Shown: positions 32,761-64,000 of the stretch, in pieces
Position numbering within the stretch: position 1 is the stretch's first letter
Layout: each line of letters starts with the position of its first letter
Origin: Cyclobacteriaceae bacterium
Lineage (GTDB): Bacteria; Bacteroidota; Bacteroidia; Cytophagales; Cyclobacteriaceae
Direction of reading: 5' to 3'
Length of the DNA: 64,000 nt
Assembly (NCBI GenBank): GCA_019694875.1
Contig: JAIBBC010000002.1
Coordinates: 1-64,000, forward strand
Notes under the pieces: generated by a model
The model's input: the letters and a program-made list of their open reading frames with translations, nothing else
Told to the model about the DNA's origin: nothing
Databases searched by the model: none
Made by a program: the position numbers and the translations under genes

Positions 32761-33024
32761 ATGCTTTCAAAAACATTCGGCTGTGCCGTGTTCGGGGTTG
32801 ACGCCCGCAAAATTACCATTGAAGTTAATGTTGGTCAGGGAACCAAGTTTCACATGAGTGGCTTGCCCGACAGTGCCGTGAAGGAAAGCGAACATCGGGT
32901 CGAATCGTCTCTTAAGCGATTCGGCTATTTTATGCCGCGACAAAAAACGGTTGTCAACCTGGCTCCTGCCGATCTTCGGAAGGAAGGCAGTGCATACGAT
33001 CTCCCCATTGCACTCTGTATGTGA
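32761..33024 (+). pseudogene. comM: 5' fragment of comM/yifB, cut by the transposon
   Basis: The first 85 codons match the start of YifB/ComM: SKTFGCAVFGVDARKITIEVNV, GLPDSAVKESEHRVESSLK, NLAPADLRKEGSAYDLPIAL. An intact protein has about 500 residues, with an AAA+ Mg-chelatase domain and acts as a helicase in natural transformation. After the codons for DLPIAL, where homologues continue with a G/A-I-L-A-A-S-like sequence, the frame reads two foreign codons and a stop at 33022. The break coincides with the left end of the Tn7-like element. The remainder of comM should lie beyond the right edge of the window. Confidence 0.88.
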
Positions 33025-33029
33025 ATAGT

Positions 33030-33089
33030 ACCAAATAATGAGAACTATCACCAAAAAATGAGAATGCCTGAATTTGCCTCATTTTGCAC
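33030..33089. repeat. Transposon left-end repeats, possible TnsB sites
   Basis: ACCAAATAATGAGAA (33030-33044) recurs 20 bases later as ACCAAAAAATGAGAA (33050-33064). A shorter inverted relative, CTCATTTTGCA, begins at 33078. Tn7-like ends carry several TnsB-binding repeats of about 20 bp, so these are candidates. Confirmation needs the matching right end. Confidence 0.6.
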
Positions 33090-33218
33090 TTTTTAAGAAC
33101 GCTGCATAGACAACTGTCAGGATTTCTCGGGCATTAAGCCCAACAGCTGAGGATACCACATGTATTTATCGTGATTGAAAATAAGTATCTTAAACCTTCC
33201 TGTTTATAATGAATATCT

Positions 33219-35132
33219 GTGTGGAAGGCTAAGCTGACTCTCGAGCAAATTAAGACTATTATCAGCGATTGTATAGCTGAGCTTGACCCCCGCCAGACCT
33301 GGATGATCACCTGGCTTGATAAGGTAGCTTTGAGGGACGACGGAACGCCGTATATTAAGGTGGCAGTACATCATGTTCATCAAGAGCTTTTCAAAGCTTT
33401 TAGCCTTGAGCACCTGAATATCAATAAGCCGCGATGGATTGCACTGCCGCTGCGGCTTTTGCGCGTTTTTCCTGTCGGCACATTGCTTCACAACGGTATG
33501 GCGATGTTTGGGTCGCATCACGGCTATATACAGTCTTTTGCACTGGATCTGAACACATCATCAGAACTTATTCGCACGACACTGGGTGCTTGGCAGCACG
33601 GTTCTGCCATAGTTAACGCCATGCGATGGAACAGGCTTGACAGGTTTGACGTGCAGCCTGCGGGGCGATTTGCAGTCAACAGCAAAATTGTTGTTTATCC
33701 CCACCGGCGTCGGCAGGAAGCTAAGTTTGATTTTGTCGTTTTCCCGGCTGCTGAGCTAGCCAGGTTTTATTGGTTTCCGTCATCGCGGTTCTTTCGCGCC
33801 CTTGTTGAAGGGGAGGCCGCCGGAGGCTTGAAAAATAAACTTTATGTTCCGGAGATAACAATGGCAATAACCGGTGAGGAAGAAGTATACCATCAAATCA
33901 TCGTGAGAGACAGTATGCATTTGCGCGATGCGGAGTTCATCGCAAGGCTTGCATTCAGTCCGGAAGCTTATTATTCAGCCAATACGATTTATCAGTCAGT
34001 TCTCCACGCCAGGCTGGAGCCCGGCAATCGCGGTGCATTGCATCTTGATTGTGTGTTTCCGTTCAGAACCGACACAACCGTGAAGGTCCATGGCTATGTT
34101 ATACGTACCGGCGAAGCGGATGTTCTCATAGTAACAGAGCTGCTCCAATGCTGCGGGCCATGGCCATTTGACTCCTTGAAGTACGACCGTGAAACACCTC
34201 GGCCCGAGAGAGACGATAGTTTAAAATGCAAGGGAAAGAAACATGTCTCCGACGATAATCAGGAAAAGGATCAGCCGGATGACGAGGACAATGGGAATGA
34301 CCAGGGAGAAGACGACGAAGATATAATCAACGGCTTCGTGCTGAGAAATCCGAAACTTCCGTCGGACCCCAGATTTGATCACATTCAACGGAACAACAGC
34401 CGCGTGAAACACGCTGAACTTGACTTAAAGTCACAGCGCTTTCCTACGCTTACTGCTAAAAAGGAAAGGCTTAAACGCTACCGCAAGGTGCCGCCGAAAA
34501 ATACTCTTAAAGTCCCTGCTGTTCCCATAGACAACATTTCAGTGAATGATAATAAGCAAACCGGTGGTGGCAGCACAAATATAGATCTGGTGAGTACTGA
34601 GGGAGAGATGAATCTTGTTGCAGTCGACTGGGGAGCATACGTCGAAAAACTATGTGAGTTTTTCAGAGTGAATGGGTGTGATGCCAGCTATATCGCGAAC
34701 CTTGATAACGGTGGTCACGACTTGCCTCACCAAGTTGACCAAGTCAGACTCCTGCTTGAACTAGGCAGAAGCTTCCGGGTTTCCTTCTTCGTAATTCATG
34801 TTCGTATGCCTAAAATCAATTTCATTGTTTGTGAAATGGACCGGAGGCTCAGGACATCGCTGAAAATCATTATTAAGTCACGGAAGCCAGGCCAAGCGAA
34901 GGCTGAATTCAATCCTGATGATTTGGCTGGGATATATTCTGCGATAAAGACCAACTACCAAACACTTGACCAGTTGCATGATCCGAAAACAAAATCAAAT
35001 TTGAAAGTCATAAGGCTTTACCACTTACCCGATGCGAGCGTGGGAGACCTTGGAGAAAGAATTCTTGTCAAAGTGAATACCGCTGCTGACGCAGATACGG
35101 ACGAGCAGTTGGATGGACAAACTATCGTGTGA
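33219..35132 (+). CDS. TnsE-like transposition protein (remote)
   Basis: A 637-residue protein starting at GTG 33219, since an in-frame stop at 33210 excludes an earlier start. Its layout resembles Tn7 TnsE. It has an N-terminal beta-rich domain (to about 180), a helical segment PAAELARFYWFPSSRFFRAL comparable to the ELARSLFLINSYFCRSC stretch of TnsE, and a conserved-looking beta unit near 290 (LHLDCVFPFRTDTTVKVHGYV). An acidic linker (DDEDNGNDQGEDDEDI, near 350) and a C-terminal alpha/beta domain (about 480-620) follow. TnsE directs Tn7 to replicating plasmids through the sliding clamp. The similarity is from memory and weak. The gene converges on tniQ with 11 bases of overlap. It could be a novel target or accessory protein. 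Confidence 0.5.
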   Translation: MWKAKLTLEQIKTIISDCIAELDPRQTWMITWLDKVALRDDGTPYIKVAVHHVHQELFKAFSLEHLNINKPRWIALPLRLLRVFPVGTLLHNGMAMFGSHHGYIQSFALDLNTSSELIRTTLGAWQHGSAIVNAMRWNRLDRFDVQPAGRFAVNSKIVVYPHRRRQEAKFDFVVFPAAELARFYWFPSSRFFRALVEGEAAGGLKNKLYVPEITMAITGEEEVYHQIIVRDSMHLRDAEFIARLAFSPEAYYSANTIYQSVLHARLEPGNRGALHLDCVFPFRTDTTVKVHGYVIRTGEADVLIVTELLQCCGPWPFDSLKYDRETPRPERDDSLKCKGKKHVSDDNQEKDQPDDEDNGNDQGEDDEDIINGFVLRNPKLPSDPRFDHIQRNNSRVKHAELDLKSQRFPTLTAKKERLKRYRKVPPKNTLKVPAVPIDNISVNDNKQTGGGSTNIDLVSTEGEMNLVAVDWGAYVEKLCEFFRVNGCDASYIANLDNGGHDLPHQVDQVRLLLELGRSFRVSFFVIHVRMPKINFIVCEMDRRLRTSLKIIIKSRKPGQAKAEFNPDDLAGIYSAIKTNYQTLDQLHDPKTKSNLKVIRLYHLPDASVGDLGERILVKVNTAADADTDEQLDGQTIV

Positions 35133-36300
35133 TCTGATCCTGTTTGTCGCCATCATTTTCCTCGCGTCGGCGGATCTTAGAGACACGCCATCTTGCGAGT
35201 TCCGCGAAACTGGAATAGGATTCCGAAAAGTCGTTTCGCCACCTTGAATACACTACCCGGTTATAGTCAACTTCAGTCTTAAACCAGTATGGTATATCTG
35301 GAAAGTCGTTTACGAATATTTTACTCCTTAGTCCAGCCATGGCACGCAGCTCCCGGAACCGCTCCGGCCACTCTTCAAGCAGCCAATAAGCTTTGTACAG
35401 AAGATTGGCGCGGTTGGATACACTAAGCGTTTCAAAAGAATTTGCCCGGCTGTTCTTCGGGACAATGAATTCGACATTCGCCGCTCTAGATAGTTCGCGC
35501 TGAAGTGTATCAAGCTGCGGATTGCCGTGTTTGTTCAGTAGCGAAAGAATTTTGCGCAGTACTAAAAAGTATAAGTGAGCATATTGGAGTCCGTGACGCG
35601 CATCATACCCTGTTTCAATTATAGTATCAAAAAATTGCTGCATTTCCAGTGCCTTTGCCTTGGCGGGAATGGGGACAACTTCGCTGAGGTTGGATAAACA
35701 CTTCCAGCAGCATGTAACAGGAAAAATCGGGGTCTGGCTTCGCCGCCCTTTTTCAGCTATCAGATGGTTGATGGGCATTTCGCACTCCGGGCATACATCA
35801 ATTAGCTCAGTACCGCACTCTACGCAGACAGTTTTTATTGATAGTCGCCACGATTTTCTGAAATAGGGCATGGCGCCATCTTTTTTTAAACACGATGGAC
35901 ATACAGTTAGGGCCGTTCGATGTTTCGAGCCGTGTTTAAGCGAATAGACACTAAACGGTGTAAACCATGGGCTTCGGTTGGCGATATCGGTAACAAACAG
36001 ATTTGGTTGAAAGGATACTAGCCGCATCTGATCAATATCCTCGGATTTAAGGATGCTTTTTTTCAAAATAATGTCCTTGATTCCGGTCGGCAGGAATTTA
36101 TCTAAGTCCCTGTCCCAAAATTCTATGCCATTGAAATACGAGGAGCAGAAGGTATAGTATCGGACTAAGTGACTGCGCGATAATCTTAGCAACCAGCTGG
36201 TGAAGAGCTCGCTTGGTAGTGGCTTTACAAACGACGGCCATGGCGGCTCATCGAAGTGGCCGAATATTATATTGCTTAAAGTTGATTTCTTTTTCGCCAT
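35122..36300 (-). CDS. tniQ: TniQ-family target-selection protein
   Basis: A 392-residue protein of the TniQ/TnsD family. The N-terminus PWPSFVKPLPSELFTSWLLRLSRSH is the signature of TniQ. Cysteine pairs form zinc-binding modules: CPSC (near 145), CVEC with CPEC (near 175-190) and CCWKC (near 220). TniQ binds the target DNA and recruits the AAA ATPase TnsC/TniB, so this protein, rather than the transposase, is the natural candidate for recognising comM. It is shorter than Tn7 TnsD (about 500 residues), so specific DNA-reading parts may be reduced or shared with the convergent TnsE-like protein. Confidence 0.9.
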   Translation of the reverse strand: MAKKKSTLSNIIFGHFDEPPWPSFVKPLPSELFTSWLLRLSRSHLVRYYTFCSSYFNGIEFWDRDLDKFLPTGIKDIILKKSILKSEDIDQMRLVSFQPNLFVTDIANRSPWFTPFSVYSLKHGSKHRTALTVCPSCLKKDGAMPYFRKSWRLSIKTVCVECGTELIDVCPECEMPINHLIAEKGRRSQTPIFPVTCCWKCLSNLSEVVPIPAKAKALEMQQFFDTIIETGYDARHGLQYAHLYFLVLRKILSLLNKHGNPQLDTLQRELSRAANVEFIVPKNSRANSFETLSVSNRANLLYKAYWLLEEWPERFRELRAMAGLRSKIFVNDFPDIPYWFKTEVDYNRVVYSRWRNDFSESYSSFAELARWRVSKIRRREENDGDKQDQITR

Positions 36301-36390
36301 ACTTTCGACGTATCGAGATACGTAGATTATCTTTTTCTGTTGAAAGCATCGATGTAACTGAACGTGATTTGGTAAATCGACTCAAAGTCA

Positions 36391-38898
36391 TTAAATACAC
36401 CGACAGTGTTTAGACGACAGTGATTTATAATATTTTCTTTGTACACTTCCTGAACAGGTACAATTGTACATAAAGCAATCTGCGATTTGATCAATTGAGC
36501 TAAGAACTGCAAGTAGCAGCTGCGGAGTAAATGAAGCTGTTACTCCTGTCGAATAATGAGAGAGCCAGTTAGCAACGATACTTGGGATTAGGGTATTTTT
36601 TGCAGAAGTTTGTTGAGATTGTGAAAGAATCAGTTGATTAGCCCTTGAGTACAGATCAAGAGCAGCGGTTATGGCATTAATACAATTTTGCACCATTTTT
36701 CGGTCATCTCTGATTGAGAAATCTATAGGAACAGGAATATTTACTCGATGGATTATTTCCAGCAACTTAAATTCAAGATACTGCCTGACAAGGGGTTCTG
36801 CTTGATCAATTTGTCCAGCTTGGAGAAATTGCGTGGCACTGCCTTTAAGACGATTGGCATTTTGTGTCTGGGTGAAAATTTTTCCATTTGGAGCGAGCCC
36901 ATTGAGCCTTTGATGATGCCATAGCGCAGTTGACGAAACTTTGTCAAAGTACTTCTCTAAAAGTCCATCATGGCTCAAAACGATAACTTGTGGCCCATTT
37001 GTATTATTGGGACGACTAATTTGAGTCCTTAAGACTTCCATTAATGCAAACTGATGACCAGCGTCAAAGCTCGAAGTAACATCGTCAAATACTATGAAGG
37101 ATGATTCTGAATTTTGAATCGCAGCACTTAGAAAAATTGATAGAGCCAAGGCATTTCTATAACTTTCTGATAAAAGAGCTGAAGCAGCCAAATTACTTTT
37201 TCCATAGAAGGTATCTAAGTTAAGTAAAAGATCTTCAGATGCACCTGTCTTGACAAGTTTTGGAATAACATCAGGATTGTTAGTTATGGCTTGGTATAAC
37301 GCTCTATAGGATGTTTCGAGGCTTAAGGTTTTGGAAGTTGACAATGCGACTTCTGCCGTCGCAAATAAGTGTGATGCATTTGTTATAAACTCAACCCATT
37401 TGGTCCTTTTTGAAAGCTTATCACTTGCATCATTAAGATTGCGTACGCTTGTTAAGTAATCAGTAATCTGTTTCTTGAGGTCTTCTGCAACGGCTACTTG
37501 TTCAGTGAGGGCAACCAAAGAGGGTGGAAGCCCTTTTTGTAGTTTCTCCTGTTCAGCTTTTAGGTTAGTTATTGTTTTTAATCGTATTCCATCAAGGTTA
37601 GTCCTATAATCAATTATCTCTTGTAAATTTTCTGCTGATATAGTTCCGGCTTCTATTAATCCTGCAATTTCTTTAATCCTTTTTCTGTCCTTGTGATCAA
37701 TAGCTATTTGGCTTGCAACTAAAAGATCGTCAAGCCTTGACGAAGTCTGCGAGTTTGACCAGGCTTCATTTAGTTTTTCGTGCAATTCAGCAGTTCTCTG
37801 ATATTGAAGAAGCTTCTTTTTTAAAGACTCCGGCAGTGAGGAAGTTAAAGTTGTTTCACAAGTTGGGCACATCTGATCATTCGTCCATTCAGCGGAACTC
37901 ATTAACTTTAATGTTTCCTCATAATGCTTTTTAGTAAGAGGACCACTTGTTCCGCTTAAATTTTTGTTGAGTTGCTCTACAAGTTCTTTTAAGCCTTCTC
38001 TTTCTTCTTCCTCTGAACTTTCAACCTTTAAAGATTCAAGTTGAGGAATAATTTGAATCAATTGACGTAGCCTTTCTTGTTCGCTGCCTTTCTCTGCATT
38101 TTTGATGATAGCTTTGATGGCATCGAAATCCGCAGTCATTAACGTGTGGGTTTCAAATGTACTCCTTAGAATAGTAATATTTTTTAGAGCGTTTGTAGAC
38201 TCAGAAATGATTTGATCGGTATCAATTGGGCTTGTTACTTGGACATTAGTTAGCTTATGGTAATTCGTAATTATTAGAGATTCCAATTGAGATTTTCTTC
38301 TTTCATAGTTTGTAACCCTTTCGCGAAGAACTAAAAGATCGAAGTCTGTATTTAGATTGCGCGTATTTGATAATACTTCAAGGGCTTGTCGATAACCGGA
38401 AATCTTACCCAAGCCTAATAGAGATGAGAATGCTCTTCCTCTTTTTAATGGCGTTTCCTCAATGAATTCCTGGAATGAACGATAGTCTAGTAAGCAAAAT
38501 TCAGAGTTTAAACTGTTTAAGAGTTGCTCTGGAGTGGTAAAACCAGATGGACTATCAACAACGCGTAGTCCGTCTGGTTGTCGTCTCACACGGACAGTCA
38601 GGGCAGCAGATCCATCATCAGGTTGAAGAGTCAGAATAATTGTAGCTAATCCTGATGAATGGAATTGATTTGCATAGTAGTTCTCTGCTCGCTCTGATTG
38701 TTGAAGTAAGGCGAGTTTAGGAACAGTACCTTTGATGGCAAAACACAAGGCATCAAAAATTGAACTTTTTCCCTGAGCATTTGAAGCGAAGAGTGAATTA
38801 ACCTGATCATTCTTTAGATTAATTTCAAGAGGATCATTCTCATTGTTAATACCTCTAAATCCTTCAATCTGGAGTTTTGAGATGAAATGTTTTGCCAT
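36391..38898 (-). CDS. Rad50/SbcC-like zinc-hook AAA ATPase, putative defence protein
   Basis: An 835-residue SMC-like ATPase. Walker A is NAQGKSS (residues about 40-46) after IEGFRGINN. A long coiled-coil region (about 170-540) is split by a CPTC zinc hook near residue 345. The signature region is SALLSESYRNALALS, and Walker B is FIVFDDVTSSFD. A C-terminal helical extension of about 200 residues follows, containing a VRQYLEFKLLEIIH stretch that resembles those of RloC or Lamassu-type ATPases. The last 30 residues are cysteine-rich and look out of frame; a +1 shift near 36475 gives a better-looking continuation (see findings). The start overlaps the stop of a 71-residue gene. No partner nuclease was identified next to it. 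Confidence 0.75.
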   Translation of the reverse strand: MAKHFISKLQIEGFRGINNENDPLEINLKNDQVNSLFASNAQGKSSIFDALCFAIKGTVPKLALLQQSERAENYYANQFHSSGLATIILTLQPDDGSAALTVRVRRQPDGLRVVDSPSGFTTPEQLLNSLNSEFCLLDYRSFQEFIEETPLKRGRAFSSLLGLGKISGYRQALEVLSNTRNLNTDFDLLVLRERVTNYERRKSQLESLIITNYHKLTNVQVTSPIDTDQIISESTNALKNITILRSTFETHTLMTADFDAIKAIIKNAEKGSEQERLRQLIQIIPQLESLKVESSEEEEREGLKELVEQLNKNLSGTSGPLTKKHYEETLKLMSSAEWTNDQMCPTCETTLTSSLPESLKKKLLQYQRTAELHEKLNEAWSNSQTSSRLDDLLVASQIAIDHKDRKRIKEIAGLIEAGTISAENLQEIIDYRTNLDGIRLKTITNLKAEQEKLQKGLPPSLVALTEQVAVAEDLKKQITDYLTSVRNLNDASDKLSKRTKWVEFITNASHLFATAEVALSTSKTLSLETSYRALYQAITNNPDVIPKLVKTGASEDLLLNLDTFYGKSNLAASALLSESYRNALALSIFLSAAIQNSESSFIVFDDVTSSFDAGHQFALMEVLRTQISRPNNTNGPQVIVLSHDGLLEKYFDKVSSTALWHHQRLNGLAPNGKIFTQTQNANRLKGSATQFLQAGQIDQAEPLVRQYLEFKLLEIIHRVNIPVPIDFSIRDDRKMVQNCINAITAALDLYSRANQLILSQSQQTSAKNTLIPSIVANWLSHYSTGVTASFTPQLLLAVLSSIDQIADCFMYNCTCSGSVQRKYYKSLSSKHCRCI

Positions 38899-39113
38899 CA
38901 GTTTTGAGTTTGAGAATCTAGGGCGTTTTTTATCTGCTGATTTATCTCGGTTCGAACAGCGGTTCGTGCTTGACCTTCTGGTAAAGAAGTTAATCTTGTG
39001 ATATTTGACTCGAGAATTGTTGCAAGAGATTCATCGATGGTTTTTAAGTGATTGATGAATAATTCAATATTTTCTTCTGGGGATTTTGCGTCATCAAATG
39101 AAAACTTAGGCAT
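38898..39113 (-). CDS. Small protein co-transcribed with the zinc-hook ATPase
   Basis: A 71-residue, mainly helical, hydrophilic protein beginning MPKFSFDDAKSPEENIELFINHL, with a tail rich in Asn and Gln. Its stop overlaps the start of the ATPase gene (shared base at 38898), which points to coupled translation and perhaps a partner role, for example regulating the ATPase. No family is recognised. It has no signal peptide or membrane segment. Confidence 0.6.
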   Translation of the reverse strand: MPKFSFDDAKSPEENIELFINHLKTIDESLATILESNITRLTSLPEGQARTAVRTEINQQIKNALDSQTQN

Positions 39114-39437
39114 AAAACAAAATTCGTTAGATTAGTTTGTTAACTGATTTAAGGGATCATTGCACGTTAGAACCTCGAGGAGATTGTCCAGTGGTTGAAT
39201 AGCTAAATTTATAACTTATTTAGAGTCCTGTACAATAGGACTAACTCCTATTCTGAATTTGTTCTTTTTTGCTTCCCGAGGGCTGTCCGCACAGGTCCAC
39301 GCGCTCCCGATACTCGTGATTGCTGTGGGCTTTAACTGGTATCAGTGGCGATGAAATGCTTGTTCTAAAAAAGTCCATCTAATCTACAATACCGCTTTGA
39401 CGACTCGCTTCTAAGTTTGCAAATTTGTGGATCCATC
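39114..39437. other. Intergenic region, 324 bases
   Basis: It contains the divergent promoters of the ATPase operon (minus) and the DUF4238 gene (plus). Its middle (about 39270-39350) is GC-rich compared with the flanks and shows no open frame or strong hairpin. No known RNA or repeat was recognised. Confidence 0.4.
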
Positions 39438-40370
39438 ATGAAACATCATTTTGTCCCAGAGGTTTACCTGAAACAGTTTTCGAGAAATTGCGAGGGTCAT
39501 TTCTTTAAAGTTAAGCGGGGTCAGAAGAGAGCGAAGAAAATACACACAAGCGGAGTATGTTATCGGGAAGACTTTTATGACATAAAAAACCCCACTGCCC
39601 TCCATGAACATAAGCTTACAGAAAAATCATTTTTAGAACGCTATGGATTCCCGTACGAACGAGGTTGGATAAATCTCATTGAGAATTTCAAAAGTAGGCA
39701 ATATGTAAGCCGATCTCAACATGAACAATTGCTAAAAGCATATGTCTCAATTAAACAACGAACACACTTTTTCAGAAGGCAGTTCACCGATCAAAAATTG
39801 CTCAACAGGATATTTAATGAAGTAACATCTAAAATGTATGAAGAATACAAAACGTTAATTGATCAGCGCAAAGTTGACTTTGAATCAATTAAAAGTGAAC
39901 AGCTTGAAAAAATGCAAGACACCTCAACGTTTTCAGAAGAAAATCATTTACGTGGATTGGTTGAATCTCTTGTGGGCATAAATACACCTATTCACGATGC
40001 CCTTTTAAAACTTTTGAGTATGAATTTTGAAGTCCTTACACCAAAAGTTGATAAGGATTTCTTCCTAACGAGTGACAATCCTGGTTTTTCTTTAGACGGT
40101 GAGAAAATCTGGAATACTAATTTTGGAAGATTCGACACCGTTGTTTTTCCAATAGCCTCAAAATATGTTGTGGCGTTTCAAGGATTCAACAACTTAAATC
40201 ATCTGGATGTTATCAAAAGAGTTCGTTACAGAAAAATTGACACCAATGAGGTTAATCTGATCAATTATGCGAGCCTTTGCACTGCTGAAGAATTTTTGTT
40301 TTGCGAGAGTGAGTCATTTCTCAATGAATTCTTGAAGCAGGAGAATTTCCCACGGGTTCCAACGAAGTGA
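39438..40370 (+). CDS. DUF4238 protein
   Basis: A 310-residue protein beginning MKHHFVPEVYLKQFS, the typical start of DUF4238 proteins. The family also shows the mid-protein FLTSDNPGFS element, present here near residue 215 (FFLTSDNPG). An in-frame TTG at 39417 was passed over for the ATG. DUF4238 is widespread in mobile and defence regions, but its activity is not established to my knowledge; the conserved His-His-x-Val-Pro has been taken to suggest an enzyme. It sits between the zinc-hook ATPase and the restriction-methylation genes, in an opposite orientation to both. Confidence 0.82.
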   Translation: MKHHFVPEVYLKQFSRNCEGHFFKVKRGQKRAKKIHTSGVCYREDFYDIKNPTALHEHKLTEKSFLERYGFPYERGWINLIENFKSRQYVSRSQHEQLLKAYVSIKQRTHFFRRQFTDQKLLNRIFNEVTSKMYEEYKTLIDQRKVDFESIKSEQLEKMQDTSTFSEENHLRGLVESLVGINTPIHDALLKLLSMNFEVLTPKVDKDFFLTSDNPGFSLDGEKIWNTNFGRFDTVVFPIASKYVVAFQGFNNLNHLDVIKRVRYRKIDTNEVNLINYASLCTAEEFLFCESESFLNEFLKQENFPRVPTK

Positions 40371-40415
40371 TCGCACATCCTTTAACGTTATCACTAAGCA
40401 TGAATGGTCCTTTTG

Positions 40416-45027: not shown

Positions 45028-45255
45028 GAGGCAAAGACATTACCGGGTTTCCGGGAACATTTTGAACGCACTCCGCGGCAAGCCCAGTTTGAGGTCAAAA
45101 TTTTAAGTTTCCAACGCGTGAAATTGGCTCTATTTAGGCTATAATTCAACATCCTGACTACATTTCTTGCCATTTACCTTCGTTTTGAGGGGTAAAAATA
45201 TTTCAGTGCTTGTGTCAATATCTGTCGGGCTTCACATTGCGGCAAATATTCCGGA

Positions 45256-46154: not shown

Positions 46155-46159
46155 GTTCC

Positions 46160-46181: not shown

Positions 46182-46204
46182 AAAAGAACGGGTCAAAAAA
46201 GGGT

Positions 46205-46233: not shown

Positions 46234-46262
46234 TAAACCAAAACGACCTTAAACAGGAACTT

Positions 46263-48813: not shown

Positions 48814-49062
48814 ATGACCTCAACAAAAACCACAGTGAAGGCTATACCGAATCGCCAGCGTTTCAATTTACTCACTAGACATCAAATTGCGATCGTTTTC
48901 ATGATTTGTAGAGAAAAGACGGTTGGTGAAATCGCTCAAAAATTGGGCATCAGCCAAAGTACCTTCTTTAATACCCGTATCATCATTTTCAAGAAATTAG
49001 GAGTCAAGTCAACCGTTGGTCTTGTGAAGTACGTCTATAAGTACAAGTACTTGAAGTTCTAA
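48814..49062 (+). CDS. Stand-alone LuxR/GerE-type HTH protein
   Basis: An 82-residue protein consisting of little more than a LuxR-type helix-turn-helix: LLTRHQIAIVFMICREKTVGEIAQKLGISQSTFFNTRIIIFKKLGVKS. No receiver or ligand domain precedes it. The dimer helix (LVKYVYKYKYLKF) is present. It may regulate neighbouring genes or act with the response regulator at 61219, whose C-terminus is a related HTH. No partner is evident. Confidence 0.72.
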   Translation: MTSTKTTVKAIPNRQRFNLLTRHQIAIVFMICREKTVGEIAQKLGISQSTFFNTRIIIFKKLGVKSTVGLVKYVYKYKYLKF

Positions 49063-51053: not shown

Positions 51054-51057
51054 TATT

Positions 51058-51669: not shown

Positions 51670-51686
51670 TTTCTAGGTCGGTTTAC

Positions 51687-52994: not shown

Positions 52995-53002
52995 TATGTG
53001 AA

Positions 53003-55180: not shown

Positions 55181-58100
55181 GTTGCTTGTTGTTTTGGGAC
55201 CTGTTTTGATTCTCTTGCAAGCTGTGATTTGTAATGCTGATGCAGCATATCGTATAGTATCAGTTCTATTTGCCTTTGTCTGGATCTAAATAGTCGGTTA
55301 ATGAACATATGAACATAGCTTCGAATTAGTCTAATCTGGTTTTCCCTGGAAGATTTAATTGCTGAAATATTTTTCGAATATCCCTTTGATCTTTTAGCAA
55401 AAATTTCGGTAAACCCGTCTTGAATGTTTTCCGATAATAGCTGAATCAGCTTGATTCTATGTGTTCTGTATTTTACACTGAGTTGATGCCTTCCTGTCGG
55501 GGTAGTTGCATTGAATTCGGCTTGAAAGGAGCGATTCATATCTTCCATGATGGCGATCTTTTCTTTGAGAGAAAATTTGAAATCGTTTAGCATTTCGTCA
55601 ATTCCGCGAATAGCAACGTGCCATCTGGCTTCTTCCGGGGAGTTTTTTAATGCCGTTAAAATTTCTGCTACTGCTGTACTATCATGCCAAAATATGCTTT
55701 CTGAATCATCAACGGTTGTGACTCCATACCTTTCAATTTCTTTTTTGTATGTGTCAATTTGAATTTTCCAGATAGTTTCTTGCTCAATTTCTTCAGAGAG
55801 GACATCATAGAGTCTATTTATAAGCTGCATCCTGTCTGGCTTGGTTGATAAAATTCTGAGACGTATGTGATACTCTGGATCAAGATACCTAAGGAAAAAC
55901 CACTTGTCTAAGAATCCCTGATTTAATTCGGCAGAGAGCCACGGAAATATTTTTTCAGTAAAAATATTTTCAACGGTTTTTGTTCCTGAATAGATTTTAA
56001 AATATATCCATTCCGATCCTGGCGGAAAGGTTCTTTTTGGTTTCGGTGAGAGCGTCTTTTGAACATTTCGATTGACAATTCTTTTGTTATCAATATTCAG
56101 GGGAACAATGAGCTCGTTGGTAAAAGACCCTTCAGAATTTGTTACGACTAAGTTTTGGTCATTGAAAAGGCACTCTTCAACTGAAACGGCTCCGTTCCTT
56201 TTTATCTCATCTAGTAGTATTTCGCAGCAGATGTCGTCCTTAGTGAAAATTGGCAAAACATTATCGGCTTCAGAAATGCAGACAACAGCCGGGATTTTTT
56301 CCCTATTTAGAAACTCTCGAAGGGCTTGAATTGTCAGTTTCTCTGTGGTGATATCTGCCTTACGTATAATCCATCTTGCTTTTGACAAGATAACTTTTCC
56401 AATAACTACACGCGGTAGGTAGTTGAACTCCCGGAAGGGTCCCCAATTCCAGGCGGTAGCGACATTGTATTCCTGCAATTGTAAGCAGCAAAGAAATTGA
56501 TAGAGAGGAAGTGCATCCGTTACATAATTATGGGCATTTGAAAGCCGAGGAATTATTTCGCGATTCAGTTTTTTAGATCGCAAAACGATCTTGTCATTCA
56601 CGACCGATATCATTAGATCGGATAAAGGAATAGTATGTTCCTGATCGACACCCCCGCGAGTAGCAATGGGTATCTCATAATCCCGAAATACTGGACGAGT
56701 TACAATATTGCCGACTCTTGCCTGAGGCAGATGCACAATCTCCGCAATGCTTGCGTTGTGAAAGAAGGATTGCTCTTTTTTCAAAAGTGAAACTAGTTCA
56801 CCTTCTAGGGTTGGATCTAATTGCGTAAATCTTCCAATGAGATTTGCAGCTGTAGGTCCTGACGACAATCGGTGATACAGATACTCCTCGCGATTACCGT
56901 TCTTTGACGTTGATTGAAAGACCTGAACTATCGAATACATTGAATCCGGGAATACCGGATTTTTATTTTCATAGAAATCCTTAAAGTCTTCCTCTTTAAG
57001 CTCCAAGACACCTGTATTGAGGCTTTCTAGATACTTTTTAGAAAGGACATTCGTCCACGGAGAATATGGAATTTTGCCGGGGCTTCCGGGAATCCAGAGA
57101 TTTATTCCATCTAACAACGCAATGTTTTCTGATTGAGTAGCGCTTCCAACGGGAAACCCAATTCCTGTATCCGGATCAAGCGCAATGGCCAAGCTGATCT
57201 CCTCGGCTTCATATCGTTTGGCAAATTCATCTCTGAATGAATTCACTGTGTCAACATTTATCGGCGCATTGAGGTTTCCAAGGAACTTGACCGCACGTTC
57301 AATCTCAACAATGTGTGCAGAATTAAGGGTACAAGTCCGAGTGGGCTTATAAAGATCGACCTGAATCACCGATTGTTTTAAGGCGGTGTTTGGGTCCTGT
57401 TCAATGTTTCTTTGGATTTCTTCATAGAGCGGGAGGCAATCACCAACTTTTGCTTGGTTAATTACTTGAAGCTTCTGGTCAAGTTTTTTTAAGTGGTCGC
57501 TGATTTCAATTGGAAGTGACGCTGCCTTCAGCTGATCAAAATATGGAACTCCAGTTACAGAAGGTTCGATCGAACCGATTAGAATTTTTGAACCGATGAT
57601 CTCTTCAATAAAATCGGAAGCAGTATCAACATCGATTTCGTCATCTACCAAGCTCTTAACCAAATCTTGAAAGGTTGCGCCGCTTTGTGCTGCTCTCAGT
57701 ACACGATCAACATAAACATCATGTTCTACCTTTGACAACTTATAAGAACGCCTAATTCCGCGCATCTGATATTCGAAAAATCTTAAATAGCCAGCCGTCC
57801 TGTAAATTGTGTCGTTGGGATAATAGACGATGTTTTGAAGTTTACGAGGGTTCTTCATCACCGAGTTGCAGATGGTGCCCAAATACCCCATGTCAATTCG
57901 TACAGACTGGCGATAGTCATTATGCGGCTGTAAAATCATTTCCGTTGCGTCTCCCCAAGTTCCTTTAGAAATGCCGGCCATTATTCCAAATGGAGTGGAA
58001 CGGAAACTCATGCGCAGGTAATATTTGACTAAGGTCTTGCTTAGCCGCTTAGTCTCTTCCGGGTTGAATCCTCCGATAAGGTAGCGTTGAATGATATTCC

Positions 58101-58236
58101 ATAATTCTGGCGATGCCAGATAGATGGCCTCCAGGAAAAGCTTGTTTTTGCACAAGCTCTCGATAGTGGGAATTGTCGACGCAAAAGGAAGGAGTGGGCT
58201 CCTTAAGATAAAAAAATCTCCTTTCGTTATATTCAT
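55177..58236 (-). CDS. lanB: Class I lanthipeptide dehydratase, full-length LanB
   Basis: A 1019-residue protein. The N-terminal two-thirds is the glutamyl-tRNA-dependent glutamylation domain (RMSFRSTPFGIMAGISKGTW and the FPDSM-to-EEYLYHRLSSG region), which adds glutamate to Ser and Thr of the precursor. The C-terminal SpaB_C-type elimination domain starts near residue 745 (EWIYFKIYSG, FLRYLDPEYHIRLRI) and removes it to give dehydroalanine and dehydrobutyrine. Both parts are in one chain, unlike the split versions common in some Bacteroidota. Its start lies 3 bases after the lanC stop and its stop overlaps the exporter gene by 4 bases. Confidence 0.92.
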   Translation of the reverse strand: MNITKGDFFILRSPLLPFASTIPTIESLCKNKLFLEAIYLASPELWNIIQRYLIGGFNPEETKRLSKTLVKYYLRMSFRSTPFGIMAGISKGTWGDATEMILQPHNDYRQSVRIDMGYLGTICNSVMKNPRKLQNIVYYPNDTIYRTAGYLRFFEYQMRGIRRSYKLSKVEHDVYVDRVLRAAQSGATFQDLVKSLVDDEIDVDTASDFIEEIIGSKILIGSIEPSVTGVPYFDQLKAASLPIEISDHLKKLDQKLQVINQAKVGDCLPLYEEIQRNIEQDPNTALKQSVIQVDLYKPTRTCTLNSAHIVEIERAVKFLGNLNAPINVDTVNSFRDEFAKRYEAEEISLAIALDPDTGIGFPVGSATQSENIALLDGINLWIPGSPGKIPYSPWTNVLSKKYLESLNTGVLELKEEDFKDFYENKNPVFPDSMYSIVQVFQSTSKNGNREEYLYHRLSSGPTAANLIGRFTQLDPTLEGELVSLLKKEQSFFHNASIAEIVHLPQARVGNIVTRPVFRDYEIPIATRGGVDQEHTIPLSDLMISVVNDKIVLRSKKLNREIIPRLSNAHNYVTDALPLYQFLCCLQLQEYNVATAWNWGPFREFNYLPRVVIGKVILSKARWIIRKADITTEKLTIQALREFLNREKIPAVVCISEADNVLPIFTKDDICCEILLDEIKRNGAVSVEECLFNDQNLVVTNSEGSFTNELIVPLNIDNKRIVNRNVQKTLSPKPKRTFPPGSEWIYFKIYSGTKTVENIFTEKIFPWLSAELNQGFLDKWFFLRYLDPEYHIRLRILSTKPDRMQLINRLYDVLSEEIEQETIWKIQIDTYKKEIERYGVTTVDDSESIFWHDSTAVAEILTALKNSPEEARWHVAIRGIDEMLNDFKFSLKEKIAIMEDMNRSFQAEFNATTPTGRHQLSVKYRTHRIKLIQLLSENIQDGFTEIFAKRSKGYSKNISAIKSSRENQIRLIRSYVHMFINRLFRSRQRQIELILYDMLHQHYKSQLARESKQVPKQQAT

Positions 58237-58238
58237 AT

Positions 58239-59459
58239 CTATCGTTCAATATCTGTTAGAAAGGACTTATCCCATCTTAAAGGCTTGGAAACCTGTGCAC
58301 TCAATAAGCCTAGTCCTATGCCCGCCGTACCATTTAAAAGGCCATTGTCTTTTTCCAGAAAGAAATTATCGGAAGAATCTTTACTTGCTGAGAATCTCAA
58401 GTATTCGCCAATTCCATTCATTCTATATTTTTTGAGATCTAAGGTTTTTTCTATCCAAAACTTGTGACGCTCATCAAATATTTCTCGATTAGTAACCTCG
58501 TAAAAGCGTTTGAACATGTGAGCTATCCCGATACTTCCGTGGCAGAAACAGGGATCAAAATAGCCTGAGTTATGGAGATGTAAGCCCGCGCTGTCAAAAT
58601 CTCGGTGTGCCGTTTTAATTGCGATCCGGAGAGCATGATTATACCATACATCATTTCCGAATGTTTTAGCAGCGTGGAATAATGAAATCGCGACGCCGAG
58701 ATCTCCGTAACACCAAGAAAGTCTACTTGGCTTCGTTGTGCTGGCCATATTTGAGAAACACGAATCTGCGTCTACAAGCTCTCTTTTTAAGAGCCAAGAG
58801 ATTGCTCTTGAAACCAACGCCTCTGTTTTAGTTCTGGCTATTCCTCTACTGTTAACCTTGCTTAAAAAAACAATGATGCTTGGAATCCCATGAGCGAGTC
58901 CCAAAGATTGGACATGTTCTGTTAGCGTGTGAATATTTTTCCCGAGTGTATCATCCCAATAAACTCCCGATGGATCTTCTTTCTTCATGGAATCCAGCCT
59001 GTCGACAATTGTACTAATAGCCTGCATGCTGAATTCGTCGGGAGTCTTTTCAAGAAAATAAATCCCTTTGCCGATCATTTTGTACATCAGATCATAGTTC
59101 TTTTCACCGAAATCCCGGTCAATTGATTGTCGGATGTGCGGGTCTAGCTGCTCAGAACATCCGTTATCATCGGTCAACAGCCCTAAATGAATCAAGTGAT
59201 GCAATAGCCATAAGAAGCCTGAAGCTCCATTAGACAATGAAAAATCTCCCTGATGGTACTTGTCAGCAACAGAGTCGAAAGAGCTTTCTATTATTTCGAA
59301 ACATTTATCTAAGTAGACCTGATTATTTGTCGCCTGAAATTGATAGGCAAAGAAAAGTGCAGCTCCTGAATCTCCTGTAAATAGTCCGCAATCTTTTGTT
59401 AGGTAAGCAGGAATATCGTTCGAAACGTCTGCAATCGCGTTATCTAATTTTTCTTGCAT
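58239..59459 (-). CDS. lanC: Lanthipeptide cyclase LanC
   Basis: A 406-residue alpha/alpha-barrel enzyme that adds Cys thiols to dehydroalanine or dehydrobutyrine to form lanthionine rings. Zinc ligands are visible in SWCYGDLGV (Cys) and in CFCHGSIGI (Cys-His), with LLNGTAGIGLGLL and LFTGDSGAALFFAYQF as barrel repeats. The start is at ATG 59459 and overlaps the end of the esterase-homologue gene by 20 bases, indicating tight coupling in the operon. Confidence 0.92.
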   Translation of the reverse strand: MQEKLDNAIADVSNDIPAYLTKDCGLFTGDSGAALFFAYQFQATNNQVYLDKCFEIIESSFDSVADKYHQGDFSLSNGASGFLWLLHHLIHLGLLTDDNGCSEQLDPHIRQSIDRDFGEKNYDLMYKMIGKGIYFLEKTPDEFSMQAISTIVDRLDSMKKEDPSGVYWDDTLGKNIHTLTEHVQSLGLAHGIPSIIVFLSKVNSRGIARTKTEALVSRAISWLLKRELVDADSCFSNMASTTKPSRLSWCYGDLGVAISLFHAAKTFGNDVWYNHALRIAIKTAHRDFDSAGLHLHNSGYFDPCFCHGSIGIAHMFKRFYEVTNREIFDERHKFWIEKTLDLKKYRMNGIGEYLRFSASKDSSDNFFLEKDNGLLNGTAGIGLGLLSAQVSKPLRWDKSFLTDIER

Positions 59460-60696
59460 CTATGAATTGGGATGGGGTAGTTTTTTTGATAAAGATCATT
59501 GCATCGAAAGCGTTGATGATGTCGATCTTAACAAATGTGAATTGTTCGCCTGAAAATCCGACCCCAGCTTCTCGCATGAACATTGACCGCTGCAGACGTT
59601 CTTTGAGATGCTGCGGCAATAAGGCGAAATTTGCGAGATAACATGGGAATGGAATTGCACTGAATTCAGCGGCAAAGGATTGATCTTTAACATTTGTAAC
59701 AATGCATGGCTGCATTCTTGCATCTTTTTGATAATTGACTGCATTAAATGATCCAGTTCCGAAATCGAATCCAATTACATAATATTTAGATAAGAATTGC
59801 TCACGCAAGCCTTCACCCATTCTGAAGTGATCCTCTTTCTTTAGTTGAAACTTTTTGGTTTGAATGTGTCCATTATGGGCCCAAAGAATAATTTTTGAGT
59901 CCGGACCAGAAAACTCTTTGATCCACTTAACGTTTTCCAACATTTCCGAGTCGCGCATGGTTTGACTTTTCGTGCCATGACTGTTTTTAACTGTTGATTG
60001 AATGATGGCACTTTTCAGCCTGGACATCATTTGAAGCGCAAATGTATAACTTCTCTCACCCTCCAGTTTGATGTATCCAATTTTGCTTGATTGTACATGC
60101 TCCTCAATAGATTTAATAGCTTTTAAATATTTGTTCTTTTTTCCAGAAAAAATCTTCCCATTAAGTTCACTCAGGTTGCTTGTACATTCATTAAGGTACT
60201 GAGGATCCACTTTTTGAATATAGTCTGTTATCATTCTTGTTAAGTTGCCTACGTGCTGACTGTCAAAACCATAAATCACAACTTGTTCATCGGCCTTGAC
60301 TGAAAGATTATAAGTTCGTATCCACTTCAGGAGTGATACAAACTCAGCGGTATGGTACACTAAATAGAAATTGCTCATCAGGCGTGGTAAGTCGTCACTT
60401 TTACCGGATAGATATTGATTAACTTCGTATGCGCTAAAATCGGTTTCAAATGCAATAACTTTGAAGTGGCCGCTTGAGACGAGGTCTTTTATCAATTCAT
60501 TTTTTATTGTGAAGAACTCATGAGTGCCGTGAGTTGCTTCACCCAAGGCGACGATCTCTTTTCCTTTCAGATAATCCAGTAGCCTCGCAGGTTCATCGAG
60601 GCGGGAGCTATCGCAATGTATTTCAATAACGCCATCAATCTGCTGGGCAACTGATAGCTTAGCAATTAGAAGAAATAAAAATGTTAGACGTAGCAT
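59440..60696 (-). CDS. Secreted erythromycin-esterase homologue in the lanthipeptide operon
   Basis: A 418-residue protein with a signal peptide (residues 1-18, ending SVAQ). It has the EreA-like catalytic motifs: ALGEATHGTHEFF (near 50-62), the Glu in VIAFETDF, and the late His of ILWAHNGHI. EreA hydrolyses macrolide lactones, but this family also includes proteins of unknown substrate. The signal peptide places it in the periplasm, separate from the cytoplasmic LanB and LanC. A tailoring, immunity or peptide-processing role is possible. It follows the lanA terminator/attenuator and precedes lanC with a 20-base overlap. Confidence 0.8.
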   Translation of the reverse strand: MLRLTFLFLLIAKLSVAQQIDGVIEIHCDSSRLDEPARLLDYLKGKEIVALGEATHGTHEFFTIKNELIKDLVSSGHFKVIAFETDFSAYEVNQYLSGKSDDLPRLMSNFYLVYHTAEFVSLLKWIRTYNLSVKADEQVVIYGFDSQHVGNLTRMITDYIQKVDPQYLNECTSNLSELNGKIFSGKKNKYLKAIKSIEEHVQSSKIGYIKLEGERSYTFALQMMSRLKSAIIQSTVKNSHGTKSQTMRDSEMLENVKWIKEFSGPDSKIILWAHNGHIQTKKFQLKKEDHFRMGEGLREQFLSKYYVIGFDFGTGSFNAVNYQKDARMQPCIVTNVKDQSFAAEFSAIPFPCYLANFALLPQHLKERLQRSMFMREAGVGFSGEQFTFVKIDIINAFDAMIFIKKTTPSQFIDARKIR

Positions 60697-60710
60697 TGAG
60701 GTGTGGGGAT

Positions 60711-60741
60711 AAAAAAATGGTTCTTAAATAAGAACCATTTT
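60711..60741 (-). terminator. Hairpin attenuator between lanA and the rest of the operon
   Basis: A 13 bp perfect inverted repeat (AAAATGGTTCTTA / TAAGAACCATTTT) with a 2-base centre is read on the minus strand, followed by extra T's. It lies between the precursor stop (60768) and the esterase-homologue start (60696). Such partial terminators after lanA make the peptide more abundant than its enzymes. Confidence 0.75.
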
Positions 60742-60767
60742 ACTCAATTTTGTTGTAATTTCTACAA

Positions 60768-61007
60768 TTAGCAAGCAAATGTTAATGTCGCTTCTGACAT
60801 GTAAGAGCATCCTGAACCGCCACAGAATGTGTCATGTTTGGTCTCACAGTTAGTTCCAGTACAAACTCGGTCGCAAGAGTTGTCATGGCTGCATTGATGT
60901 GACCAGGACAACTGTTCTGTTCCGCCTTTAACGGCAAACATCTGTTGGTCGTTGAGGTTCGCAATAGTCTCTTTCTTGAGACTTAGGGTTTTACCTAGTT
61001 TTTTCAT
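60768..61007 (-). CDS. lanA: Lanthipeptide precursor peptide (LanA)
   Basis: A 79-residue precursor. The leader (residues 1-29, starting MKKLGKTLSLKKETIANLN) has the Bacteroidetes class I pattern and ends with Gly-Gly, the cut site for the C39 exporter. The core of 50 residues starts TEQLSWSHQC and ends LTFAC. It contains 7 Cys and 14 Ser/Thr, enough for up to seven thioether rings. The start was moved from the ORF edge to ATG 61007, because the upstream extension (52 residues) is unlike a leader. No second precursor was found in the operon. Confidence 0.9.
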   Translation of the reverse strand: MKKLGKTLSLKKETIANLNDQQMFAVKGGTEQLSWSHQCSHDNSCDRVCTGTNCETKHDTFCGGSGCSYMSEATLTFAC

Positions 61008-61062
61008 GGAGTATGTTTTTAATTTAAGATTTATAAATAACCGCATTCGATTGAATATTGAC

Positions 61063-61108
61063 AATACCGTATTTATACGCTTACTAAATACCGTATTAAT
61101 ACGGTATT
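61063..61108. promoter_or_regulatory. Two palindromic operator sites upstream of lanA
   Basis: AATACCGTATT-AATACGGTATT (61087-61108) is a perfect 22 bp palindrome. A related imperfect copy (AATACCGTATTTATACG) begins exactly 24 bases earlier (61063). They lie between lanA and the divergent response regulator gene, with spacing close to multiples of helical turns, so a dimeric regulator such as the LuxR-type protein at 61219 is a natural candidate ligand. Confidence 0.65.
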
Positions 61109-61218
61109 GCATATAAAATGGCAGCTTAGACAATGCAAATAATCCGTACTTAAAAGGCCACAATTTTTTTTAACTTTTACGTTTTATAACGTCCAATCGA
61201 AAACATTATCTGCCTATA

Positions 61219-61920: not shown

Positions 61921-61967
61921 ATCGTGAATACCCTGTTACTGCTATTTGGGTTGGCCACTGTCCGTTA

Positions 61968-62151
61968 CTAGGTCAGCGGATATGCGAAGTCCGGATGAAA
62001 AAGTGTATTTCCTTAAAGGATTTCGAGGCGTATGAGATTGCTTTGAGGGTGTAGTCTTTCAAAAATTGAAAAGGGCATTCATGTTCCTACTGTGTACACG
62101 GTCTGTCGGATAGCCGATATCGTAGACGTAGTCGAATTTTTTAAGAAGTAG
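61968..62151 (+). pseudogene. Frameshifted XRE regulator copy
   Basis: In one frame LGQRICEVRMKKCISLKDF and EAYE match the intact XRE protein at 45933 (IGQRIREIREKKGISLKEF, ETYE). Near 62046 the frame shifts by one base (a two-base loss would explain it), and the other frame continues LSKIEKGIHVPTV, VCRIADIVDVVEFFKK and a stop at 62149, matching LSEIENGNTLASV and the tail of the intact protein. It lies between the response regulator and tniB, on the opposite strand to the intact copy. The start is uncertain; no clear ATG fits upstream. Confidence 0.78.
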
Positions 62152-62504
62152 CCCGCTGCGGAGCGGGGACTTCACTACCATTTGCGTTAAAAGAATAATT
62201 TCGCCCTGAAGCGCTAAAAACCGACATTGCGCGATTCTAGAGTATTATTATCTAAAGAATTTGGAAAAAAACTCCCTTTTGACGGTATTCAGCTTATCAG
62301 AAGTTGATTTGCATAATAAGATTCTTTCGGTAATGCGGCTTACGCATACTTTACATAAATGTATCCGCCCCTCGGCCTAATTGTTCAAATAGGACAACCC
62401 AGTATTTCGGCCTTTAAATGAGATCAGAATGGCGAATGGATGATTTGGCGTCGCGTGCACGGTAAGACTTAAACTTGAAGCGGCCGTATTGGGATGGCGC
62501 AGCC
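62152..62504. other. Intergenic region, 353 bases
   Basis: No gene or RNA was recognised between the XRE pseudogene and tniB. It begins with a GC-rich hairpin (CCCGCTGC / GCGGGG-like) and contains scattered AT-rich stretches. It may hold the end of an old cargo module. Confidence 0.35.
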
Positions 62505-63407
62505 CTAGAAAATCTTTTTCTTTTCTTCTTCCTTCGCCTTGGGAGACATGTGATCACATTTTTCCATCACAGGGATGGTGAGTTTTCTATGGCCCTTATT
62601 TATGGCGTATTTGGTTGCTGCTCTTAAGAGATCGAAGATATCCCCGATCGTCCTGTCGGTATTGGAAAGAATGTAGCGCACCATCTCGTCGCTGGCGAGG
62701 TTTGAGGGCTCTTCTAACGGCAACACTGCCTCAAACGAAGCCAGCAAACTGTCCATCTCCTCATTTGCGCTCCAGGGCGGGATAACAGCGGGGCGGAAGC
62801 GACTTTGGAATTGTTCATCGAAACTGAAAATGTTAATGGCCTCCGGAGTTCCGGCTACGATAAAAGACAGCTGCAGCACACTGGAGATGTTCTTCATCAT
62901 GTTGACGATGAGATGTTGCTGACGGGCAGTGCCAACCCCGATATGCTGGATCTCGTCGACGAGAATCACCTTGCAGTCGATCCGTTCCAGAGCATTATAT
63001 AACTGTTCGAGCTTGTTGGGGAAACTATCAGTTTTTTTCACCGTAAGTTGAACAGTTTTAAGAAGTGTGTTGACAAAAAGAATTTCTGTCGGGTCGTGCG
63101 GCATGACTGCTGCAATGACTGGAGCGTAAAGTTCTCCGGTTTCCTCGTCCAGCTCCGCTTTGTTCAATTTCGCAAAGCGTTTCAAAAGGGTGGTCTTCCC
63201 GCTGTTTGATCTTGCGACAATGATCAGGTCAGGCATCCGGTGTGTCCGGGGATGAGCAAGGATTTCCTCCATCTTATTCCAAATTGTCTCGACTGCACCA
63301 TGGCCGATCCACGGAGTTTCATCCATAAAGCGAATCTTTTTCTCCTTCGCATCAGGGCCTTGGCAGCTTTCTAGAAAACGAACCGTCCGTTCATCTAAAT
63401 GATCCAT
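62505..63407 (-). CDS. tniB: TniB/TnsC-type AAA ATPase
   Basis: A 300-residue regulator of transposition. Walker A is ARSNSGKTTLLKRF (residues about 65-78), and Walker B is CKVILVDEIQHIGVG (near 145-157). It is followed by sensor elements FIVAGTPEAIN and FRPAVIPPW, and a C-terminal helical region. TniB/TnsC forms rings on DNA that link target selector TniQ to transposase. The start overlaps the upstream transposase stop by 17 bases, typical for the tniAB pair. It is shorter than Tn7 TnsC (about 550 residues) and resembles TniB of Tn5053 and Tn6022-type elements. Confidence 0.9.
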   Translation of the reverse strand: MDHLDERTVRFLESCQGPDAKEKKIRFMDETPWIGHGAVETIWNKMEEILAHPRTHRMPDLIIVARSNSGKTTLLKRFAKLNKAELDEETGELYAPVIAAVMPHDPTEILFVNTLLKTVQLTVKKTDSFPNKLEQLYNALERIDCKVILVDEIQHIGVGTARQQHLIVNMMKNISSVLQLSFIVAGTPEAINIFSFDEQFQSRFRPAVIPPWSANEEMDSLLASFEAVLPLEEPSNLASDEMVRYILSNTDRTIGDIFDLLRAATKYAINKGHRKLTIPVMEKCDHMSPKAKEEEKKKIF

Positions 63408-64000
63408 GATCGATGTTTTTAAAACGCTTGGGGGCTTTCTTAATTGTTGTTGACTCTGCTGTTACTTCCGGCGGAGCTGGATAATCGTCTATGGTTTGGG
63501 CTTTCGGCATCGGCTTGGTCTCTAGTTCAGATTTCCGGCTTTCACGCCTGCGTGCTTGTTGTGTCTTTTCAACCGCAGCACGTTCGAGTTCGCGCAGTGC
63601 CACGTATCCTCGGACGATAGCGTGAGTATCAATAGTTGCATTCTTTTTCTTCAACTCGCGTTCAACCTCCCGCTTTTCCCAGATACTTATGTCAGGGCAA
63701 CTCAGGTCAACACTTGGAATTTCGTGATATATCCTCGTGCCCGGATCAAGGAAATATATTTTTTTGATGTTACGTAAGTCCATTTTGAAGATGAACTTCT
63801 TTTTTTGCCGCTTCTTTTCAAATTCGTATTCCTCTTTCAAATTGATATAAGGGGAGAGCACGGGTGAGTAGTACTCCATATTTTCTGCCTGTACTCCTGA
63901 ACTCTGAATTGTGCGCTCATAGGATGGCATGAAGTCGAGGCGAAGTCTGTCAAAGTTTTCATAGAACTCGTTGAGTCCCGAAGCCGGCATTCCGTCTTCA
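63391..64000 (-). CDS. tniA: TniA/TnsB transposase, C-terminal part (runs off window)
   Basis: The C-terminal segment of a DDE transposase of the TnsB/Mu family. The visible part is the beta-barrel segment after the catalytic domain (FKMDLRNIKKIYFLDPGTRIYHEIPSVDL), followed by a basic, Arg/Lys-rich tail that in TnsB contacts TnsC. The catalytic DDE residues lie beyond the window edge, so the apparent Met at 63990 is not the true start. The stop overlaps tniB by 17 bases. Confidence 0.82.
   Translation of the reverse strand, partial: EDGMPASGLNEFYENFDRLRLDFMPSYERTIQSSGVQAENMEYYSPVLSPYINLKEEYEFEKKRQKKKFIFKMDLRNIKKIYFLDPGTRIYHEIPSVDLSCPDISIWEKREVERELKKKNATIDTHAIVRGYVALRELERAAVEKTQQARRRESRKSELETKPMPKAQTIDDYPAPPEVTAESTTIKKAPKRFKNIDHGSFR

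Follow-up and report, generated by a model that had tools for sequence, protein, structure and literature searches.

Tn7-like elements with no detected TnsF recur at fixed places in the comM gene of Bacteroidota

The comM gene serves mobile elements of several kinds as an attachment site, and in the stretch of DNA studied here (the window, 64,000 nucleotides, i.e., C3:1-64000, where C3 is contig JAIBBC010000002.1 of a 4.68-Mb Cyclobacteriaceae genome in 5 contigs) its reading frame gives way to foreign DNA. This raises the questions of what kind of element has entered the gene, whether it did so by chance, and what directed it there. We think it fairly probable that the answer is a lineage related to Tn6022 that enters comM without TnsF, with TniQ acting as the direct reader of the target and with some lineages having shifted their site.

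The 5′ part of comM (32761..33019, plus strand) contains 86 codons and one base, runs to ...DLPIALC, and is foreign from 33020 onwards, with the PF13541 match split at this point. The element that begins here, element A, is 33,061 bp long (C3:33020-66080, with 33020..64000 inside the window), as defined by its ends, by a 5-bp target duplication, and by the resumption of comM at C3:66081 on the same contig, to the right of the window. The duplication, CTGTA, is present at 33015..33019 and, outside the window, at C3:66081-66085; the left flank reads ...GCACT CTGTA followed by TGTGAATAG..., and the right flank reads ...CAATCACA followed by CTGTA TTTTAAAATC. AbaR islands carry an ACCGC duplication. 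We did not find this ACCGC duplication in the available portions of PMC11879209 and PMC8767349. Element A is bounded by imperfect inverted repeats of 25 nt, TGTGAATAGTACCAAATAATGAGAA and TGTGATTGTTAAAAAATAATGAGAA (the left one at 33020..33044, plus strand), and additional TGAGAA repeats lie internal to both, with the second repeat on the left ending at 33064; these repeats are likely TnsB binding sites. Element A has the ends of a Tn7-like element, i.e., TG...CA termini, inner repeats and a 5-bp duplication. An earlier, sequence-only reading of this DNA had proposed that a Tn7-like transposon interrupts comM in a member of the Bacteroidota, and had advised looking for a 5-bp duplication beside it, a matching terminal repeat and the rest of comM to its right; the proposal is borne out and all three are present. 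It had placed the end of the comM frame at DLPIAL, after 85 codons, and had started the element 4 bp early, at 33016.

In element A, tnsA, tnsB and tnsC are located at the right end, and tniQ and a TnsE-like gene at the left end. The TnsE-like protein (637 aa; 33219..35132, plus strand) is homologous to proteins in the same position of related elements, and TniQ (392 aa; 35122..36300, minus strand), our proposed target reader, matches PF06527 (E 1.3e-14) and has a predicted TniQ/TnsD fold. At the other end are TnsC (TniB, 300 aa; 62505..63407, minus strand; PF05621, E 1.7e-46), TnsB (TniA, 629 aa; PF09299), whose C-terminal part is in the window (63391..64000, minus strand) and whose gene extends to C3:65280, and then tnsA (C3:65285-66019; PF08722). 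Pfam confirms the tniQ, tniB and tniA genes named previously, as TniQ, TniB (TnsC) and a Mu-type transposase (TnsB), and adds TnsA; the Tn7-like set of TnsA, TnsB, TnsC and a TniQ-domain protein is encoded both by element A and by a second element, B, described below. The minus-strand cargo at 36391..45027 encodes an LmuB-like SMC protein, a type II methyltransferase and a type IIG-like restriction protein, and a DUF4238 gene lies among these genes on the plus strand. A lanthipeptide-like cluster at 51687..61163 (minus strand) encodes HlyD, a C39 peptidase ABC transporter, LanB, LanC and an Erythro_esteras-domain protein, with a possible lanthipeptide precursor, judged by eye from the sequence, at 60768-61163 (minus strand); the erythromycin-esterase domain is a Pfam match alone, which is no evidence of resistance. 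An 82-aa gene that by eye has a LuxR-like helix-turn-helix is common to elements A (48814-49062) and B (C3:84164-84412), which otherwise share little cargo, and in the B-like element of genome G753 (G denotes a genome, and L a locus) the DNA of this gene is 79% identical to that of element A.

Where a single element had been described, we found two. The middle part of comM ends at C3:66691 and the C-terminal part is located at about 91,970-92,649, and between them lies element B, a Tn7-like element of 25,280 bp (C3:66692-91971) outside the window, with ends TGTCAATTCC...GGAATTGACA and a duplication of either 4 bp (GGTA) or, should the right end be shortened by one base, 5 bp (AGGTA). Its site is the Gly loop before Walker B of comM, about 600 bp beyond element A. 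In element B, tnsABC-tniQ occupies the right end and the TnsE-like gene lies close to the left one; comparison of A with B (TniQ 37%, TnsB 44%, TnsA 43% and TnsC 33% identity, and the TnsE-like proteins 32% over 183 aligned residues) indicates that they are relatives, not copies. The cargo of element B includes BilC-like and BilD-like proteins and a type IIG/type I-like restriction protein; at C3:84934-87177 we also noted by eye a row of four small lipoprotein-like genes that resemble one another and all share the Cys-rich tail CEMKC...QEIIE.C.SQTC.C. Element B has a relative in G753, which is 92.7% identical over 13.5 kb and whose insertion point is 3 bp away, implying either separate events or slippage within the Gly repeat. 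Virtual excision of both elements, leaving one duplication copy each, restores an open comM of 512 aa, and a whole-genome search of the host found no other comM match.

Analysis of related genomes (samples from larger groups, with the host included) showed how often comM is entered. In the host's genus, comM is in one piece in 12 of 17 genomes, which answers the concern raised by the earlier reading that the gene might be truncated in relatives without any transposon; it is split across a contig break in G761 and interrupted in the remaining 4, i.e., twice in the host, at the site of element A (site A) in G019, and at the site of element B (site B) in G752 and G753. TniQ of the A/B type is uncommon, being present in 13 of 390 genomes of the host's family and 3 of 395 of the phylum (both at E 1e-30), and in 7 of 341 of the order (E 1e-20). 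In the family set of 13, comM is interrupted in 12, the exception being G144, where comM is whole and the tniQ match contains a stop; in the order-level set (n = 7) the elements of G065 and G144 lie outside comM, which is whole elsewhere in both genomes. Genome G300 contains a second, broken element that runs into a contig end.

The insertions fall at very few places. Four genomes from two genera (the host, G019, G1062 and G1031) have an insertion at site A (DLPIALC), with duplications that start 17, 15, 11 and 11 nt, respectively, from the GAT codon of DLP, i.e., within 6 bp of one another. Site B accounts for the majority of the remaining insertions, with duplications located within about a dozen bp, and site C (between ECV and CGP, duplication ATGCG) was seen in a single case, G249, which differs from the other elements in that ~14 kb separate tnsA from the comM 3′ part. 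Perfect 5-bp duplications are present at 14 insertions (element A, G300, G310, G249, G019 and nine others). In A elements and most B elements tnsA adjoins the comM 3′ part, and it adjoins the 5′ part in G791, G880, the B element of G1062 and six gammaproteobacterial loci. The double insertion also recurs: G1062, which belongs to another genus, contains comM 1-85, an A-type element, comM 84-289, a reversed element at site B and comM 289-512, with 5-bp duplications at both elements. In G1031, which has an A-type element at site A, we observed an additional break of about 180 bp in comM near residue 337 (G1031:C22:84730-84911). No DNA motif common to the regions downstream of sites A, B and C was found, the best matches being no better than random positions. 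From a TnsB scan of named genomes the best 80 of 444 loci were kept, and a comM fragment adjoins tnsA in 39 of these 80: 31 lie at site B in the usual orientation and 6 are reversed, while L065 (identical to G019) lies at site A and L114 (a Bacillota MAG, with a comM fragment from residue 74 at a contig edge) near it. The other 41 of the best 80 of 444 have no comM fragment beside tnsA, and some of them end early. Since comM is interrupted in 12 of 13 genomes with this TniQ, site A recurs, and the double insertion is found again in another genus, Tn7-like elements return repeatedly to fixed places in comM, and not by chance.

We examined the left junction of the element in 13 more Bacteroidota genomes with a tnsA end at or near site B. 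In 10 of the 13 (G723, G727, G730, G731, G732, G735, G737, G738, G739 and G750; loci L168-L177, with G723 in L178) comM stops between residues 85 and 267, with a TGTCA-type element end within a few bases, and a search of these 10 genomes for the missing part of comM, as far as site B, gave no match. G741 shows an early comM stop and no clear element end, and G729 and G733 show no such loss. The tnsA end thus stays in place at site B and it is the other end that varies, which counts against simple insertion with duplication as the picture for all members. A candidate further site at comM residue ~444 (L094) was rejected, as this genome keeps comM 1-217 and 440-510; it is counted at site B in the usual orientation, with a deletion on that side too. 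In other genomes, a whole spare comM is apparently present in the element, directly after tniQ in L140 (G743:C45; 5931-7439) and beside the TnsE-like gene in L141 (G749:C237; 1778-3280) and L146 (G724:C4; 4133-5668). Between L140 and L141 the spare copy is 98% identical, whereas identity between the halves of the split host comM in these two genomes is 89-91%, as if the spare comM were mobile together with the element.

In the Tn6022 family, tnsF is present beside tniQ, and we found no such gene in element A, in element B or in the host genome. A model built from six TnsF proteins matched 8 of the best 80 of 444 loci, i.e., the six builders plus two fused forms (L058 and L091, E 5e-72 and 1.5e-24); all eight are labelled proteobacterial, none Bacteroidota, and the TnsF-bearing elements of this set are located at site B. 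With filters off, the model found no TnsF in elements A and B or in those of G300, G249 and G310; at the level of whole genomes it recovered one positive control and nothing in 27 others, and a control-free search of 13 more genomes, at least 4 of which have coordinates equal to genomes among the 27, was also negative (0/13). A very diverged TnsF could escape this model. The only genes common to all the complete elements compared are tnsA, tnsB, tnsC and tniQ, and since no TnsF was detected and the G300 element has no TnsE-like gene, TniQ is the sole common candidate for the reader within the elements.

The phylogeny of TniQ is consistent with this role. In a tree of 39 proteins, the four A-site TniQ proteins form one clade (100/100) beside the TniQ of host element B (96/96), those of the reversed Bacteroidota elements form another (97/94), and the C-site TniQ lies beside Hymenobacter B-site proteins (94/85, and 99/82 in a second tree of 75 rows). 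Six site labels need 5 changes on the TniQ tree, which is the minimum, compared with a mean of 14.7 when shuffled, and 28 TniQ rows without comM form one proteobacterial clade. The trees thus indicate that TniQ phylogeny tracks the insertion site, and because TnsABC may follow the site equally, they count as support and not as proof. A search for site-specific residues gave 17 that are invariant in the four A-site proteins and absent from 12 B-site proteins, seven of them in 355-371; this signal was set aside, as it arises partly from the earlier ends of the B proteins. Size and fold are not decisive, since TniQ in these elements is about 325-400 aa, no longer than the TnsF-requiring TniQ of Tn6022 (369 aa), and the predicted structure (mean pLDDT 87) has its best match in the TnsD-TnsC-DNA complex (E 3.5e-5), i.e., a DNA-reading protein, with Cascade-bound TniQ nearly as good.

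We suggest from gene content and phylogeny that element A, with TnsA as endonuclease, TnsB as transposase, TnsC as AAA+ switch, TniQ and the TnsE-like protein, entered comM by directed transposition, and that its relative, element B, did so further along the gene. Most likely, TniQ would bind a conserved piece of comM coding DNA and TnsC would recruit TnsAB to a nearby point, where comM would be cut; binding at one place and insertion close by would scatter the insertion points by a few bp around each site. The A lineage may have arisen through a shift of a B-site TniQ to a different part of comM, and the C-site lineage in the same way from a B-site TniQ; at site B, flipped-orientation lineages exist as well. 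Retargeting of TniQ within comM would enable relatives to occupy one gene together. The TnsE-like protein would serve another pathway. We see an even chance that TniQ reads comM directly without TnsF and has also changed specificity in nature at least twice (B to A and B to C), with flipped modes at B; if true, these elements represent a natural series of TniQ retargetings inside one gene.

A less likely alternative is that comM is read by another protein, which passes the site to TniQ as TnsF does; this could be the TnsE-like protein, one encoded by the cargo, or a DNA-binding protein of the host. Such a hand-over is the Tn6022 route, as described in the available part of PMC10293859, and the lengths of TniQ given above and the presence of a TnsE-like gene in most of these elements are in keeping with it. 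Against a helper of this kind, the complete elements have no further gene in common; against the TnsE-like protein as reader, G300 contains no such gene and G249 a marginal one (E 0.01), and TnsE-like genes are also found in elements that are not found in comM. In both A and B this gene lies at the far end on the opposite strand, and its homology to TnsE is weakly supported: the element A protein has no Pfam or NCBIfam match, Pfam TnsE_C is weakly matched by 3 of the 24 proteins in the alignment (best E 0.0068), and the predicted fold, a low-confidence model (mean pLDDT 62), has no PDB match at E 0.001, several of its insignificant matches being PriB/SSB folds.

Very unlikely, in our view, is that these are ordinary TnsF-type elements whose TnsF is too diverged for detection or was lost after insertion. 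TnsF proteins are poorly conserved (22-29% identity), but the model still recognizes the fused forms, nothing was found in cis or in the 27 whole genomes, and late loss would have to have occurred independently in many lineages. We consider it highly improbable that an RNA guide directs insertion, in the manner of the type I-B1 CASTs with a comM crRNA that are described in the accessible part of PMC11406308. The longest exact comM matches in five complete elements are 12-14 nt, as they are for reversed comM (12-14 nt), although the longest match in G310 is 14 against 12 reversed, and element B has five matches of 13 against one; no Cas family was found among the cargo proteins scanned (a subset of ORFs), so that neither a Cas effector nor a target-matching guide, which define a CRISPR-associated transposon, is present in the scanned cargo proteins and comM matches. 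Chance insertion into a dispensable gene or an assembly artefact is barely credible, since, although comM loss is tolerated in several bacteria (PMC11472951, available part), the places are fixed within a few bp across different genera with 5-bp duplications, the double insertion is seen again in G1062, and the contig is 1.2 Mb long with clean junctions.

Loss of ComM may have consequences for the host and the element. In A. baumannii, comM is inactivated by AbaR and other elements in 22% of the strains studied, and its inactivation lowers transformation (both from the part of PMC11472951 available). It is plausible that natural transformation of the present host is affected, as the earlier reading supposed, and ComM loss might favour persistence of the element, since transformation would then remove it less readily. 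In the open-access literature searched, no title or abstract opening reports comM elements free of TnsF, site A or double insertions, with the proviso that the supplements of PMC10293859 may list TnsF-free ones, and at least one insertion place in comM was not found reported. Capture of comM by Tn7-like elements is a recurrent event in Bacteroidota, not one peculiar to Acinetobacter, and a group with no detected TnsF and with several TniQ types and sites in one gene offers a direct system for the study of DNA reading by TniQ and of specificity change.

Tn7 inserts beyond glmS and spares that gene; unlike Tn7, the elements described here cut the host comM. The likeness to TnsD at glmS (PMC8649781, the main text of which contains no mention of comM) lies in a TniQ-family protein that would here, too, read conserved coding DNA. 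The Tsy elements, described in the available part of PMC10293859 as tyrosine-recombinase elements with a TnsF-like protein, also have comM as target, whereas the enzyme here is TnsAB and the ends are of the Tn7 type. Type I-B1 CASTs are likewise Tn7-like with comM as an attachment site (PMC11406308), whereas the present elements showed no guide-like match and the scanned cargo proteins included no Cas family. According to PMC11406308, almost all comM-targeting elements have a TnsE homologue. The Tn6022/AbaR backbone of Acinetobacter is alike in having TnsABC, a short TniQ, insertion in comM with duplication and, encoded on the opposite strand close to the far end, a TnsE-like protein; its TniQ is 369 aa, and TnsF is essential for its insertion in comM (PMC10293859). 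The sequence-only reading had drawn the parallel with AbaR/Tn6022-type islands; element B is located near Walker B, where TnsF-bearing relatives sit, and element A is in comM ~600 bp upstream, and neither has a detected TnsF. That reading's suggestion of an independent case in another phylum is right about the phylum, and independence is not clear, because TnsABC, TniQ and the TnsE-like protein belong to the same wider group as those of TnsF-bearing comM elements and B occupies the same place. As no TnsF was detected, the targeting route of elements A and B probably differs from that of AbaR/Tn6022, and they are Tn7-like elements of a Tn6022-related kind whose route into the same gene appears to be a different one.
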